From Vairimorpha ceranae (taxonomy: Eukaryota > Microsporidia > Nosematidae): DNA of 41,073 nucleotides. Every line of letters starts with the position of its first letter. Position 1 is the stretch's first letter. The stretch covers positions 1-41,073 of the forward strand of contig NW_020169332.1 in the NCBI RefSeq assembly GCF_000988165.1, given 5' to 3'. Under the pieces are notes generated by a model, which saw only the letters and a list, made by a program, of their open reading frames with translations, ran no database searches and was not told where the DNA came from. Positions 27,917 through 33,649 of the stretch are shown piece after piece. Both the position numbers and the translations under genes were made by a program.

Positions 27917-28552
27917 TTATTCTTCAATTTCAGCATTTCTCGCAATATCATAATCTTCATTTACGTTCTTCGCATCATCATAATGCAACTCAGAAGGTTG
28001 TAAATTAATATTAGAAACAAATACAAGACTGTTATTATTATATAATCTCCTAGCAAGTAGTAAAAAAGGTTGAGCGAAGTTATAAGTAGTTTTAGCACTG
28101 ATCTCACAATAATCGTAATCATAATCCCTAGCTGATTGTAAAATAGACTTTCTATTGGCTTTTCTGTCAGTACAATCAATCTTATTAGCGACAATAACCA
28201 TTGGTTTATTTCCTACTACATTTTTAAAGTTACGCATCCAAGTAGATAAATTATTAGCAGAAACTCTACTTGTTACGTCATAGAAGAAAATAGCACCATC
28301 AGCTTCAAGATAATAAATATCTTTTAGAGCTGCATGCTTTTCTTGTCCTGCAGTATCCCAAACATCAAAAACAATAGATTCATGAGCTGATATCCAAAAA
28401 GTGGCGGGATGGCAAGCAACACCTATAGTAGCTATATATTCTTTACAAAATGTACCGTCTAAAACTCTATTAATGTAAGTTGTTTTACCTACACCACCAT
28501 CTCCTATTAAACAAATTTTGTATCTTTTTGAGGGGACTTGGACTCCACACAT
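27917..28552 (-). CDS. GSP1: Ran GTPase
   Basis: This 211-residue protein is the nuclear-transport GTPase Ran. All nucleotide-binding motifs are present: GDGGVGKTTYINR (P-loop), the switch I threonine in YIATIGV, WDTAGQEKHAAL (with the catalytic glutamine), NKIDCTDRK and EISAKTTYNF. The hallmark segments YDVTSRVSANNLSTWMRNF and AQPFLLLARRLYN match Ran and not Rab. There is no C-terminal prenylation cysteine; the end is acidic (NVNEDYD...AEIEE), as in Ran. Ran-GTP directs cargo through nuclear pores and is charged by RCC1, whose gene is at 19417-20505. CCCC stands before the ATG (GGGG at 28554-28557). Confidence 0.97.
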   Translation of the reverse strand: MCGVQVPSKRYKICLIGDGGVGKTTYINRVLDGTFCKEYIATIGVACHPATFWISAHESIVFDVWDTAGQEKHAALKDIYYLEADGAIFFYDVTSRVSANNLSTWMRNFKNVVGNKPMVIVANKIDCTDRKANRKSILQSARDYDYDYCEISAKTTYNFAQPFLLLARRLYNNNSLVFVSNINLQPSELHYDDAKNVNEDYDIARNAEIEE

Positions 28553-29226
28553 AGGGGTTATATTTTAAAAAATGATAAAAATTTTTTGAAAAAATAAATG
28601 CATAAAATAATAGAAAGAGATAAATAAAAAATATTATAAGTAAAGACTAAATTAAGACTTTTAATCAATAGAAATTTGTTATTAGGAATTTAAATATTTT
28701 AAAAATGGAAACAAATTAAGACTTTTATTTTGTGAAGCGAGATTTATCCTTATGAACTAAATTTTTTGAAAATGGAAACAAATTAAATTTAATAGTTTTG
28801 AAAGAGTTAAAAATTGAGCAAAAAAAATTAGAACAAATTAAATCTAATAGTTAATGAAGAAGGATTATTTAGATGAAGATTGTCTTGTTTTATTAAACAA
28901 ATAGAATTAAGATAGAGCTATGTAATATAAATTAATATTTTATGTAAAGATAGATACATAAACTATACGTACAAAAGCTTATAAAATGGCTGTTGTGAAT
29001 AAATAACCCTTAACTTATAAATCATAACAATTGCACTAGAAAGCTTAATTATATCAAACATGAAGTTACTAAATTAGTATAAGGGGTTTAACACATTAGT
29101 AATTTACATAACTAAGTTGAATTATAAAAACAAACATTTTACTGTTAATACATAGATGTTTACTTAAAAAACTTAGCTTAGATAGAAATAATATAATAGA
29201 GTTGATAAGGTTTATACAAATAAGTT
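28553..29226. other. Spacer with short direct repeats
   Basis: No gene. The block AAATGGAAACAAATTAA occurs near 28704 and again near 28769, and ACAAATTAAATCTAATAGTT-like sequence recurs around 28780-28850. These look like worn short repeats. Confidence 0.5.
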
Positions 29227-29844
29227 TTATTTTAAAATATTAATTTTAAAAAATGTATCTATAAAATCTTCCACTCTATAATTCATATCATCTACTTCTA
29301 TTTCTACTTCATAAGTCACTTCATTATTTGTTCTTACAACTGTAAAATCATAATTGAACCATTTATCAGTAAAAGTGTCTCTTTTCCTGTGTCGCACAAA
29401 ATCAACAGAACTCTGTGTCTGTCTTTGCATTTGTTTCTCCTCAGTCATTATACTTATACGTATATCATATTTGTACTGTGGTAGGTACAAATCCACTACT
29501 AATATTTTACGCTTTTTTTCACAAAATCTATATTCATTATTTACAAATCTTACTCTGTTACCATTTTTAAGATATTGAAATAGATCTTCTATGTGTTCTT
29601 TAAAATTTAGATTATTTTTTAAGGTTTTAAAATCCCACTGGTCTACGCCTGGCATAAATAGATGATTACGTGGAAGTTTAGTAAAAATAACAGGTGTTAA
29701 AGAGTTAATCTTTATTCTTGATTCTGTTTCCTTATTGTAGATTTTACCTATACGTGCTTCTATTTCATATTTTAGTGATGAATGTTTTAAAAGTAGTGAT
29801 TTTATAATTGATGTAAATTCTAGTTTCTCATTTAATGACAACAT
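29227..29844 (-). CDS. CET1: mRNA 5'-triphosphatase (Cet1-type, tunnel fold)
   Basis: This 205-residue protein is a metal-dependent RNA triphosphatase of the fungal Cet1/TTM family, which removes the gamma phosphate from new mRNA before capping. Motif A is YEIEARIGKI (metal-binding E27 and E29). A central basic strand is YKYDIRISIMTEEKQ, followed by RHRKRDTF, and motif C is VTYEVEIEVDDM (E179, E181, E183). The shared front end, INSLTPVIFTKLPR, is also present in the neighbour at 30154-30603. Microsporidian enzymes of this type are compact, near 220 residues, so it is full length. CCC precedes the start (GGG at 29848-29850). It acts in the nucleus with the guanylyltransferase, which is not in this window. 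Confidence 0.88.
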   Translation of the reverse strand: MLSLNEKLEFTSIIKSLLLKHSSLKYEIEARIGKIYNKETESRIKINSLTPVIFTKLPRNHLFMPGVDQWDFKTLKNNLNFKEHIEDLFQYLKNGNRVRFVNNEYRFCEKKRKILVVDLYLPQYKYDIRISIMTEEKQMQRQTQSSVDFVRHRKRDTFTDKWFNYDFTVVRTNNEVTYEVEIEVDDMNYRVEDFIDTFFKINILK

Positions 29845-30153
29845 AAAGGGATGTAATTTGTTATTGACAGTATTTAAATATGTTAATTTAATATTTTAGC
29901 ATAAATAGATGTTTTATGATGAAAGGACAAAAAAAGAAAAAATTATTTTTTTATATCAAAAACATTAGAAGTTAATTTAGGAAAGAAAATTTATTGTACA
30001 AGACTACTTATACAAAATAACAAATATATTGTAAGATATTACATAAAGTTAAGATATTACAAAACAACAAATATATTGTAAGATTAACAAAAATTGTATA
30101 TTATTTAATTAAGATATAAAAAACATGATATAATAACTAGTATATTCTACTTA
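29845..30153. other. Spacer between the capping-enzyme paralogues
   Basis: A 309-base AT-rich spacer. ACAAATATATTGTAAGAT occurs twice, near 30020 and 30068. No other feature is seen. Confidence 0.5.
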
Positions 30154-30603
30154 TTACTCTTTCTTATTAAGTTTATAATGTACATCCTCACACAATCCTG
30201 TGAGTAGTTGTAAAATATCATCTACCTTTTTATCACCCACTTCTAATACAAATTCTTTATCTTTTCCTACAGTAAAAGAATTACATGTTTTAGATTTAGT
30301 ACCACGATACTGATAAATCATAACATCGTAAATTTTATTAGGAAAATGTATGTATGTAATTGAAATGGGTTCTTTTATATCTGAAATATAAGTAGTGTAT
30401 TGATTCTTTATTAGATTATCATTACCTTTTATTTTAAATTTGTATAAAGAAGGTAATTTTGTTAAAATTATAGGATTTAGAATGTTAAGTGAATATCTGT
30501 GTTCAGTAATCTTGTGTACTATTTTACCAAAATACAAATTTAAAGAAAATTCATTTGAAATTAAATCAGAGAAAACTTCAGTAAAAGATCTAAGTTTCTT
30601 CAT
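30154..30603 (-). CDS. Degenerate Cet1-like paralogue, probable pseudoenzyme
   Basis: This 149-residue protein is a tandem paralogue of the RNA triphosphatase at 29227-29844, in the same orientation and upstream of it. The shared front end reads LYFGKIVHKITEHRYSLNI then LNPIILTKLP, parallel to the ARIGKIYNKETESRIKIN and LTPVIFTKLP of the neighbour. The catalytic glutamates of motif A are gone: YEIEARIG is replaced by FSLNLYFG. The basic strand YDIRISI becomes YDVMIYQ, and motif C keeps only FVLEVGD. It is some 55 residues shorter. The frame is intact and has CCC (GGG at 30604-30606) directly before the ATG, so it looks expressed. A regulatory or scaffolding role in capping is an inference. 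Confidence 0.7.
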   Translation of the reverse strand: MKKLRSFTEVFSDLISNEFSLNLYFGKIVHKITEHRYSLNILNPIILTKLPSLYKFKIKGNDNLIKNQYTTYISDIKEPISITYIHFPNKIYDVMIYQYRGTKSKTCNSFTVGKDKEFVLEVGDKKVDDILQLLTGLCEDVHYKLNKKE

Positions 30604-30638
30604 GGGTATTTACAAATAATTAAGATGTATAAACAATA

Positions 30639-31205
30639 TTATTTATTCTTAAATATATTTACAATAGAAATAACTAGATAACATATTATAAATGTAAGAA
30701 TACCATTTACTACACAACTTGGTACTTTCTCAATATAATCTGATAGATATTCTATAAAATAATAAAAGAGAAAATAAAAATAAGCATAAATCTTAGTAAA
30801 ATACGTAGTAGGATTAAATAATGCATAAAAGGGTTTTAAGTTTACCCACTTATTATTTTCTACTACATTAAATAATTCATCTACAGTAGTAGCTCTAATA
30901 ACATAAGATTTTAACTTGTGCCTGATTATAAAAGTAGGGAATTCAAAAATATACAAATGTGATGCAAGGAATGGTTCTGTAAAAAAGTTGATTTTTTTAA
31001 TAGGAATAGGTAATTCTGATATCTTTTCATTAAATTTCTTACACAAAGGGCAGTCTTGATCGGGCCGATTGTAGTAAACGTATATCATAAAAGTTGATGG
31101 ATCATAGAAATCAGATTTTGTAACAGTAGATAAATTATCAAAAGAAGTCGAAATAATAAAATTTGTGTAAAAATTTAACAGCATAAAAATATGAAATATA
31201 AACAT
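30639..31205 (-). CDS. ER thioredoxin-like single-span membrane protein
   Basis: This 188-residue protein begins with a signal peptide-like stretch (FIFHIFMLLNFYTNFII). A thioredoxin-like fold follows, with FMIYVYYNRPDQDCPLCKKF (active-site-type C52-P-L-C55) and the cis-proline strand IFEFPTFIIRH (P90). A hydrophobic region at about 136-152 precedes a clear membrane span at about 166-185 (VNGILTFIICYLVISIVNIF) and a short basic tail. The layout matches TMX-type ER oxidoreductases, or the Ost3/Ost6 subunits, which also pair CxxC with membrane spans; Ost3 has four spans, so TMX-like is preferred. It is predicted to face the ER lumen. CCCC is upstream (GGGG at 31210-31213). It lies 35 bases upstream of the Cet1-like paralogue. 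Confidence 0.7.
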   Translation of the reverse strand: MFIFHIFMLLNFYTNFIISTSFDNLSTVTKSDFYDPSTFMIYVYYNRPDQDCPLCKKFNEKISELPIPIKKINFFTEPFLASHLYIFEFPTFIIRHKLKSYVIRATTVDELFNVVENNKWVNLKPFYALFNPTTYFTKIYAYFYFLFYYFIEYLSDYIEKVPSCVVNGILTFIICYLVISIVNIFKNK

Positions 31206-31700: not shown

Positions 31701-32582
31701 CTACAATTTTTTACATTTATACAACCTTTTAGCTTTTTCTAGTATCTTCTCCACTTTAACACCCTTTCTATTATTCAAATCTTGTATCATCAACACATTA
31801 TCATTATATCCCTGTCTGATTATATCACTCTTTAAAATACTTAATATCCCCACTGCTATGTAAATTAAAATATTATTTATGTTTTTGTGTGCAAGAATAA
31901 AAGTAAATATTTTAAGATATTCTTCATATTTAAACTCTCTAAAAAACAAACAATTAAACCATCTAAAACTAAACACATGAAACTCTAGTCCTATTTCACT
32001 TAGATATGTACACAAAACTGGATCAATATTTTCCATTGTCTCTCTAAATCTAAGTATTAGATTTCCTTGTAAATTAATAATATTAAACTCGATTTTTTTA
32101 ATTAAATCAAGATATAAAAAATACGCTTGATATTCGGGACATGATTGTAAAAAAGGAACAAGAAAATCTGCCATCCCTTGTACATACCCTAAATTATATC
32201 TTCTATGTGATATAAGTAGTAAAATATTCTGATATGATTTTGAAATGTCTTGGTTCCCTATTTTCACATGTCTAGGGTTTAGTCTTTTAATGTCTATTTG
32301 TATTTGGTGAAAAATTTTTTTGTTTATTTCTAACTGATGGAAAAAAGGAAGATTGTTATTTTTGATAAAAATAAGAATATCTTCTGAAGGAGTGTAAGAA
32401 TTATTGTGATTAAAACTCATTTCTACGAGAGCAGTGTATTCATCAGAATGACCTCCTTTTAAAAAGACTGTCCATACCTCTGGACCAAGAGGAATCATTA
32501 ACTTCTTAATGTATTTTCTTAGCTTTACCTCGTCAATAAATTTATGCGATAAAATCTTTTTTATAGAATTTGTATGTGACAT
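31701..32582 (-). CDS. TBC-domain Rab GTPase-activating protein
   Basis: This 293-residue protein is almost all TBC domain. The start of the domain is KLMIPLGPEVWTVFLKG. The arginine finger is in FHQIQIDIKRLNPRH (IxxDxxR, R100), and the glutamine finger is in YNLGYVQGMADFLVPF (YxQGM, Q135). A later family segment is FHVFSFRWFNCLFFREF. Both catalytic fingers are intact, so it should speed GTP hydrolysis on a Rab protein and thereby control vesicle traffic. It resembles compact members such as yeast Gyp-type proteins; the target Rab cannot be read from sequence. No extra domains are present. CCC precedes the start (GGG at 32588-32590). Confidence 0.9.
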   Translation of the reverse strand: MSHTNSIKKILSHKFIDEVKLRKYIKKLMIPLGPEVWTVFLKGGHSDEYTALVEMSFNHNNSYTPSEDILIFIKNNNLPFFHQLEINKKIFHQIQIDIKRLNPRHVKIGNQDISKSYQNILLLISHRRYNLGYVQGMADFLVPFLQSCPEYQAYFLYLDLIKKIEFNIINLQGNLILRFRETMENIDPVLCTYLSEIGLEFHVFSFRWFNCLFFREFKYEEYLKIFTFILAHKNINNILIYIAVGILSILKSDIIRQGYNDNVLMIQDLNNRKGVKVEKILEKAKRLYKCKKL

Positions 32583-32896: not shown

Positions 32897-33649
32897 TTAT
32901 AATTTATTCCCATATAACTCTTCTACTAATTCTTTTTCTATTGTATCCATCTGTGCAGGTATCACTAAACTGTGTAAAGGTTTACCAAAATTTATTTTAA
33001 TTAATTCTTCAATAGTCCCATATTTAATAAATTGGTCAGGTGATCCAAATCTACATACAGCAAATACTTTGTACTTTTCATTTACAACATCATTTTTAAT
33101 AGATAAAATTTGATTAAGTGCTTCATTCACACTCATATACCTATTCTCATCAACTTTAATATCTAGTAAGCAGAGGGTGTGTAGACCACATTTAATATTC
33201 GTAAGAATATTATTGAAGAAAGATAAAGGCCTCCAATCTTCAGTAAAGTAAGGTATAGAGACTGTTTTACCGTGGTGATACGAGTAAAGGCCTAGACATC
33301 CGTATATATTCAAAATAGAAGCATTGTGAATAACTTCTACTGGTATATTCATCTCTCTACCTTTTACAAGAAGTCCTATATGTGTTGTAGCAAACAGGGG
33401 TGTACCTGCTACTAGTATTACAATAACATTATCTAGTGCTTCTTTAAAAAAGAAGTCTTCTGATTCAACACTATCTCTATTACAAATTACTATAGGTTTA
33501 CCAATATATTCTTCTAATTGACTTATAGGTTTCTGTTGTAGAGATGTATAGTTTTCAAAATATATTTTGTCTGCTTTCTTTAATATTTCTAGACTTCTTA
33601 ATGAGATGTCTTTATATGAATCTAATCCCATTCCAATAATATAAATCAT
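32897..33649 (-). CDS. DPH5: Diphthine methyl ester synthase (Dph5)
   Basis: This 250-residue protein is a SAM-dependent tetrapyrrole-methylase-fold enzyme that methylates the diphthamide precursor on a histidine of elongation factor 2. Family landmarks are the start MIYIIGMGLDSYKDIS, ADKIYFENYTSL, VAGTPLFATTHIGLLVK, EVIHNASILNIYGCLGLYSY, TVSIPYFTEDWRPLSFF and TLCLLDIKVDE. Usual eukaryotic enzymes are near 285-300 residues, so this one is trimmed, mainly at the C-terminus. One variation is AGTPLFATTH where the family usually has 'GDPFxATTH'. Diphthamide on EF2 would imply that the other DPH enzymes are encoded elsewhere. CCC precedes the start (GGG at 33654-33656). Confidence 0.95.
   Translation of the reverse strand: MIYIIGMGLDSYKDISLRSLEILKKADKIYFENYTSLQQKPISQLEEYIGKPIVICNRDSVESEDFFFKEALDNVIVILVAGTPLFATTHIGLLVKGREMNIPVEVIHNASILNIYGCLGLYSYHHGKTVSIPYFTEDWRPLSFFNNILTNIKCGLHTLCLLDIKVDENRYMSVNEALNQILSIKNDVVNEKYKVFAVCRFGSPDQFIKYGTIEELIKINFGKPLHSLVIPAQMDTIEKELVEELYGNKL

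Follow-up and report, generated by a model that had tools for sequence, protein, structure and literature searches.

Microsporidian genomes are heavily reduced, so that where a dead copy of an essential enzyme of capping is retained, it must earn its place. Why, then, does Vairimorpha ceranae carry, beside the gene for its capping RNA triphosphatase, an enzyme different in kind from that of animals, a second and shorter gene whose product appears to have lost the catalytic residues? The window, by which we mean the whole stretch of DNA analysed, is contig NW_020169332.1 (NCBI RefSeq assembly GCF_000988165.1; positions 1 to 41,073 of the forward strand), one of 116 contigs (C48) of a 4.56-Mb genome. 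From its sequence and that of its relatives, we read the short gene as a paralogue that came under constraint after duplication and was kept as a pseudoenzyme. The tandem open reading frames (ORFs) lie on the minus strand where a preliminary description of this DNA had placed them, the gene for the 149-amino acid (aa) protein being upstream of the enzyme gene in the direction of transcription:

29227..29844, minus strand: Cet1-type RNA triphosphatase, 205 aa, presumed active (PF02940)
29845..30153: intergenic gap of 309 bp, with stops in all three minus frames
30154..30603, minus strand: pseudo-triphosphatase paralogue, 149 aa (BLASTP, profile-profile comparison, relatives)

The sequence of the 205-aa protein is that of a typical member of the fungal and microsporidian Cet1 family, to which yeast Cet1, fission yeast Pct1 and the E. 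cuniculi enzyme belong. It matches PF02940 at 67.9 bits (E-value 1.3e-18; curated cut-off 24 bits), and a profile search of solved structures returned as relatives 4pn0, which we take to be Pct1 of fission yeast, and 6l7v, a triphosphatase-domain protein. The metal-binding glutamates E27, E29, E179, E181 and E183, which had been noticed by eye, were recovered in the alignment with yeast Cet1 and are complete (five of five) in each of five aligned enzymes in all three MAFFT modes, and the enzyme is presumed to be active. They fall in two motifs:

29758..29766, minus strand: enzyme motif A, E27-I28-E29 (= Cet1 E305, E307; MAFFT alignment with yeast Cet1, three modes)
29296..29310, minus strand: enzyme motif C, E179-V-E181-I-E183 (= Cet1 E492, E494, E496; MAFFT alignment, three modes)

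The 149-aa protein is a homologue of this enzyme, and true paralogy of the two is supported by several sequence comparisons. BLASTP of one against the other gave 33.5 bits and an E-value of 4e-7 (a single comparison), and hhalign of the paralogue alignment against the enzyme alignment gave an E-value of 1.1e-6 and a probability of 90.9% over residues 7-97. The Smith-Waterman score of the window pair was above that of 2000/2000 shuffles, and for the nine paralogue-enzyme pairs only 0 to 2 of 2000 shuffles attained the score. The common front end, GKI-x-x-K-x-TE-x-R and TKLP, can be seen in both proteins as first described, and the suggestion that a profile search might show the short protein to be unrelated is ruled out by these three methods. 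Measured against the PF02940 family the short protein is nevertheless an outlier: it scores 16.8 bits, below the cut-off of 24, is about a quarter shorter, has no motif A glutamates and does not conserve the phosphate-binding positions. Among solved structures, a sequence search with the single paralogue gave four weak matches (E-value 0.21 or more) that were taken as unrelated, and the paralogue profile gave no match.

The paralogue is not confined to the window. An intact protein of V. necatrix (P0002) is 57% identical to the short protein, and another from a sequencing sample (P0003), also intact, is 49% identical, so that the search for the paralogue in related species proposed at the outset has found it in two further sources, with the same motif A glutamates missing. 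P0002 and the V. necatrix enzyme P0006 lie on equally long contigs (979,666), as do P0003 and the enzyme P0005 (1,551), and because of these equal sizes the pair is probably linked in both other sources. The sequence cluster of the window's short protein has three members on 73 contigs, and the named relatives of both proteins come from Vairimorpha and Nosema. In a tree of nine rows, drawn with a midpoint root, a branch 2.76 changes per column long (support 99/98) separates the paralogues from the other rows. Tip lengths run from 0.17 to 0.84 in the paralogues and from 0.04 to 0.84 in the enzymes; support is weak for the remaining five internal branches, and the row of yeast is very long.

The losses and the retained parts of the short protein can be placed on four segments:

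30526..30549, minus strand: motif A strand in degenerate form (FSLNLYFG, residues 19-26), lacking both metal glutamates
30436..30477, minus strand: best-conserved block, residues 43-56, NPIILTKLPSLYKF, 12/14 invariant against 6/14 in the enzymes
30307..30369, minus strand: hairpin of the core (residues 79-99); its P-x-x-x-YD turn is shared with the enzyme, whose R129 is M95 here
30241..30255, minus strand: E117-F-V-L-E121, perhaps a remnant of motif C, ahead of a predicted C-terminal helix

The catalytic positions of Cet1 were taken from the residues named in PMC10201420 (papers given by PMC number are cited from extracts of their text). The metal-binding glutamates of motif A (Cet1 E305, E307) have no counterpart in any of the three paralogues: residue 22 is N, I or S in the three sources where all enzymes have E29, and opposite E27 the alignments place a gap, an ungapped count by eye giving S, N and N. 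None of the phosphate-binding positions (Cet1 R393, K409, K456, R458) is conserved across the three paralogues in any of the three MAFFT modes. At the K409 position the paralogues have K, V and M, and at the R458 position an R occurs in one of them (two MAFFT modes). Two internal stretches of the enzyme are missing in the short protein, and the strand with K456 and R458 is mostly missing in the paralogues, less so in P0003, whose linkers at these places are longer. R393 is absent as well, but the same column is N in the enzymes too, which makes this position uncertain.

Motif C is a different case. E117 and E121 are invariant in 3/3 paralogues, and in the best-scoring register they stand opposite E179 and E183, the middle glutamate alone being replaced, although, across the gap penalties used, between 16 and 36 of 200 shuffles do equally well. 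MAFFT favours another register, and the C-terminal strand aligned alone reached no significance. Motif C is perhaps only partly lost, and the earlier statement that most of it had gone was too strong, while the loss of the motif A glutamates and of conserved phosphate-binding positions stands. Taken over the three sequences, loss of catalytic residues in the short protein, shared by its relatives, is supported.

What the paralogues have kept is unevenly distributed. Invariant columns were counted in the three paralogues and in the three enzymes of the same sources (three of the five aligned), within segments whose bounds were chosen after viewing the alignment. Over the whole protein 58/149 columns are invariant in the paralogues and 123/205 in the enzymes. 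The paralogues have the lower count in the motif A strand (4/8 against 8/8), residues 27-37 (5/11 against 9/11), the first linker (3/22 against 12/18), the second linker (1/17 against 8/17) and the C-terminal part (9/31 against 16/29). The N-terminal helix (5/15 and 6/15) and the hairpin (14/21 and 13/21) are close to equal, and only residues 43-56 show a marked excess in the paralogues (counts listed above). The clustering in this block was equalled in 66 of 5000 permutations, in which the best window anywhere was used. Within the block, P44-I45-I46 fall opposite Cet1 Q329-C330-V331, whichever of the three MAFFT modes is used.

Homology, loss and conservation can be read from the sequences; the physical partner and the role are inferred. 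The gene for the Cet1-type RNA triphosphatase was duplicated long ago, and the second copy lost its catalytic residues and, to judge from the alignment, two internal stretches that include most of the phosphate-binding positions. The shortened copy then came under a new constraint, as its intact, conserved relatives from three sources show. Its product would serve the capping apparatus as a subunit that binds protein but does not catalyse, pairing through the conserved NPIIL/KLPSLYKF strand either with itself or with the live triphosphatase, and such pairing would stabilize or place the enzyme. This sequence of duplication, loss and constraint ending in a capping subunit is the account that we tentatively favour, as possible more than probable. 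Residues 43-56 are proposed as the binding surface because this best-conserved block aligns to the strand with C330-V331, which Lehman et al. (2001) reportedly identified as one of two essential facets of the Cet1 homodimer. The heterodimer with the live enzyme that the preliminary description suggested is consistent with this alignment, and the Vairimorpha enzyme may itself be a dimer. In a more specific and rather unlikely version, the capping triphosphatase of the Vairimorpha lineage would consist of two subunits, one live and one dead; the dead one would stand in for one half of the ancestral homodimer and govern the stability, the placement or the speed of cap formation.

Several observations weigh against a partner in capping. 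The second dimer facet of yeast Cet1, said to consist of F272, L273 and D280, would lie N-terminal of the starts of both microsporidian proteins and has no counterpart in them, and residues 43-56 may be conserved for folding alone. The PF02940 model matches only two of the three paralogues, even at an E-value of 1. A structure model built from the three sequences reached a predicted local distance difference test (pLDDT) score of 41, too poor for use, and a second one, with low confidence (pLDDT 52), leaned on the five enzymes in its alignment; it was made with 8 of 10 distinct sequences, omitting P0004 (one residue from the window enzyme) and P0008 (a V. apis variant). A helix at residues 127-141 is predicted in this low-confidence model, and no Cet1 chain was among the 28 structure matches listed for it, an absence that carries no information on the fold. 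At the sensitivity of the searches, the protein database that yielded the enzymes of V. apis and N. granulosis gave no paralogue from either species, and when the three paralogues were used as a profile, only these three proteins came back out of 1175 candidates; either the function is not needed group-wide or the gene sets are incomplete. Finally, the T. brucei enzyme is described as monomeric and as able to take the place of Cet1 in living yeast (PMC4791841), from which it follows that dimerization is not required in every setting.

Homodimerization of Cet1 does matter in vivo in yeast, by a role that is not known (PMC3813497), and a natural pair of live and dead protomers, if the two form a complex, would offer a direct test of that role. 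The reading of the short protein as a dead partner draws on two precedents, RNR4 with RNR2 (PMC2704937) and RESC1-RESC2 (PMC10201420). Yeast RNR2-RNR4 is a heterodimer of a live and a dead paralogue that has kept the dimer surface (PMC2704937); this is an unrelated enzyme and serves as an analogy only. RESC1-RESC2 (GAP1/2) of trypanosome RNA editing is an obligatory heterodimer of pseudoenzymes with the RNA triphosphatase fold (PMC10201420; PMC12936278), and, like the short protein, these have lost the metal glutamates. However, RESC1-RESC2 is mitochondrial and domain-swapped, both of its subunits are dead, and it has positively charged tunnel residues and binds 5'-triphosphates, according to the same extracts, whereas in the Vairimorpha pair one member keeps the catalytic residues and the other has no conserved phosphate-binding positions. 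Yeast CTL1, a paralogue of CET1, is likewise shortened and fast-evolving, but is reported to keep 14 of 15 catalytic residues (PMC2704937), in contrast to the Vairimorpha paralogue without motif A glutamates.

Inactive RNA triphosphatase heterodimers are therefore already known. The preliminary description knew of no such case in microsporidia. Among the matches listed in literature searches on microsporidian capping and triphosphatases, pseudoenzymes, duplication, and triphosphatase heterodimers or interfaces, no paper on such a microsporidian paralogue appeared, and in the main text of the V. necatrix genome paper, as extracted, the words 'capping', 'triphosphatase' and 'paralog' occur 0 times (PMC10759460). 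The claim needs qualifying all the same, in that P0002 already bears a capping name at NCBI, 'mRNA-capping enzyme subunit beta-like protein'.

A doubtful but serious alternative is that the paralogue was recruited outside capping and became a small alpha/beta protein with new partners, in which some of the fold is retained. The long stem branch in the tree, the reduction from 205 to 149 aa and the invariance of the paralogue-specific residues 52-55 (SLYK), where the enzyme mostly varies, all agree with this, but the tandem arrangement with the enzyme, the probable linkage in two other sources and the persistence of enzyme-shared residues after motif A and in the hairpin speak against it. It is considerably less plausible that the short protein binds 5'-triphosphate RNA without hydrolysing it, like trypanosome RESC2, and so holds or guards nascent 5' ends, since the basic positions are not conserved among the paralogues.

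That the short gene is a decaying duplicate, open by chance in this strain, is highly improbable, although it evolves faster than the enzyme and lacks internal stretches. The preliminary description had allowed that it might exist only as a decaying copy, yet the gene is intact in three sources at 49-57% identity and has a start-like CCC signal. In neutral simulations of the short gene, which used substitutions only, without insertions or deletions, and are hence conservative, the frame survived in 0 of 2000 copies when identity had fallen to about 50%, and in 11 of 2000 at about 62%. With diverged relatives intact and no neutral copy open at about 50% identity, the evidence is strongly against a decaying copy, and this reading is rejected. 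Least probable of all, with nothing found in its favour, is an artefact of assembly or gene model, with the ORF as the tail or split piece of a longer gene, as the frame spans 151 codons from stop to stop, no clear remnant lies nearby and proteins of the same family come from other assemblies.

The start of the short gene had been described as proper and its frame as intact, and both points held. At the local intergenic stop frequency the chance of 149 open codons is about 2e-6, and a CCC run precedes each of the two start codons:

29848..29850, minus strand: CCC run, bases 4-6 upstream of the enzyme ATG
30604..30606, minus strand: CCC run, immediately before the paralogue ATG

CCC before ATG fits a microsporidian start signal. 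Among non-overlapping ATG ORFs of at least 100 aa in the window, 15/23 have CCC at most 12 bases upstream of the ATG, compared with 20/693 intergenic ATGs.

A frame-shifted or truncated full-length copy was also considered and rejected. A tblastn search of the window with the enzyme as query, after masking of the enzyme gene, gave 11 rows, of which the paralogue was the best (1e-4) and the other 10 were taken as background; no match, and hence no triphosphatase remnant, was found inside the gap at 29845..30153. A 19-residue match at 28689-28745 on the plus strand (53% identity, E-value 0.071) lies in repetitive AT-rich DNA and is most likely due to chance; it corresponds to enzyme residues 89-107, a stretch that is mostly missing in the short paralogue. 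The remaining nine rows had E-values of 0.43 or more.

In the genome as a whole, the family search found only the enzyme gene, as two pieces, and guanylyltransferase and cap methyltransferase gave one match each, these counts being lower bounds. With one gene for each of the three activities, the short protein is not a substitute for a lost enzyme. No third paralogue was found beyond the pair by this search, which also missed the short gene, so that an equally diverged copy could escape it. V. apis has two enzyme entries, P0007 and P0008, on contigs of 12,816 and 21,504; P0008 is nearly identical to P0007 except for 14 residues missing at the basic R-x-R-x-R strand and around it. P0008 could represent another allele or a second gene copy, or its gene model could contain a false intron.

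The neighbouring genes are also on the minus strand. The end of an ORF at 30639-31205 lies 35 bp upstream of the paralogue start; it encodes a protein of 188 aa, hydrophobic at its ends and containing a CxxC motif (DCPLCKKF), for which no family above cut-off and no significant structure match were found, and which by eye is perhaps a thioredoxin-type, Ost3/Ost6-like membrane protein of the endoplasmic reticulum. Further upstream are a TBC-domain Rab GTPase-activating protein at 31701-32582 (PF00566, 3.4e-28) and diphthine synthase Dph5 at 32897-33649 (TIGR00522, 2.1e-76), and on the other side of the pair, at 27917-28552, lies a Ras-superfamily GTPase (PF00071, 1.9e-39) that appears Ran-like by eye.
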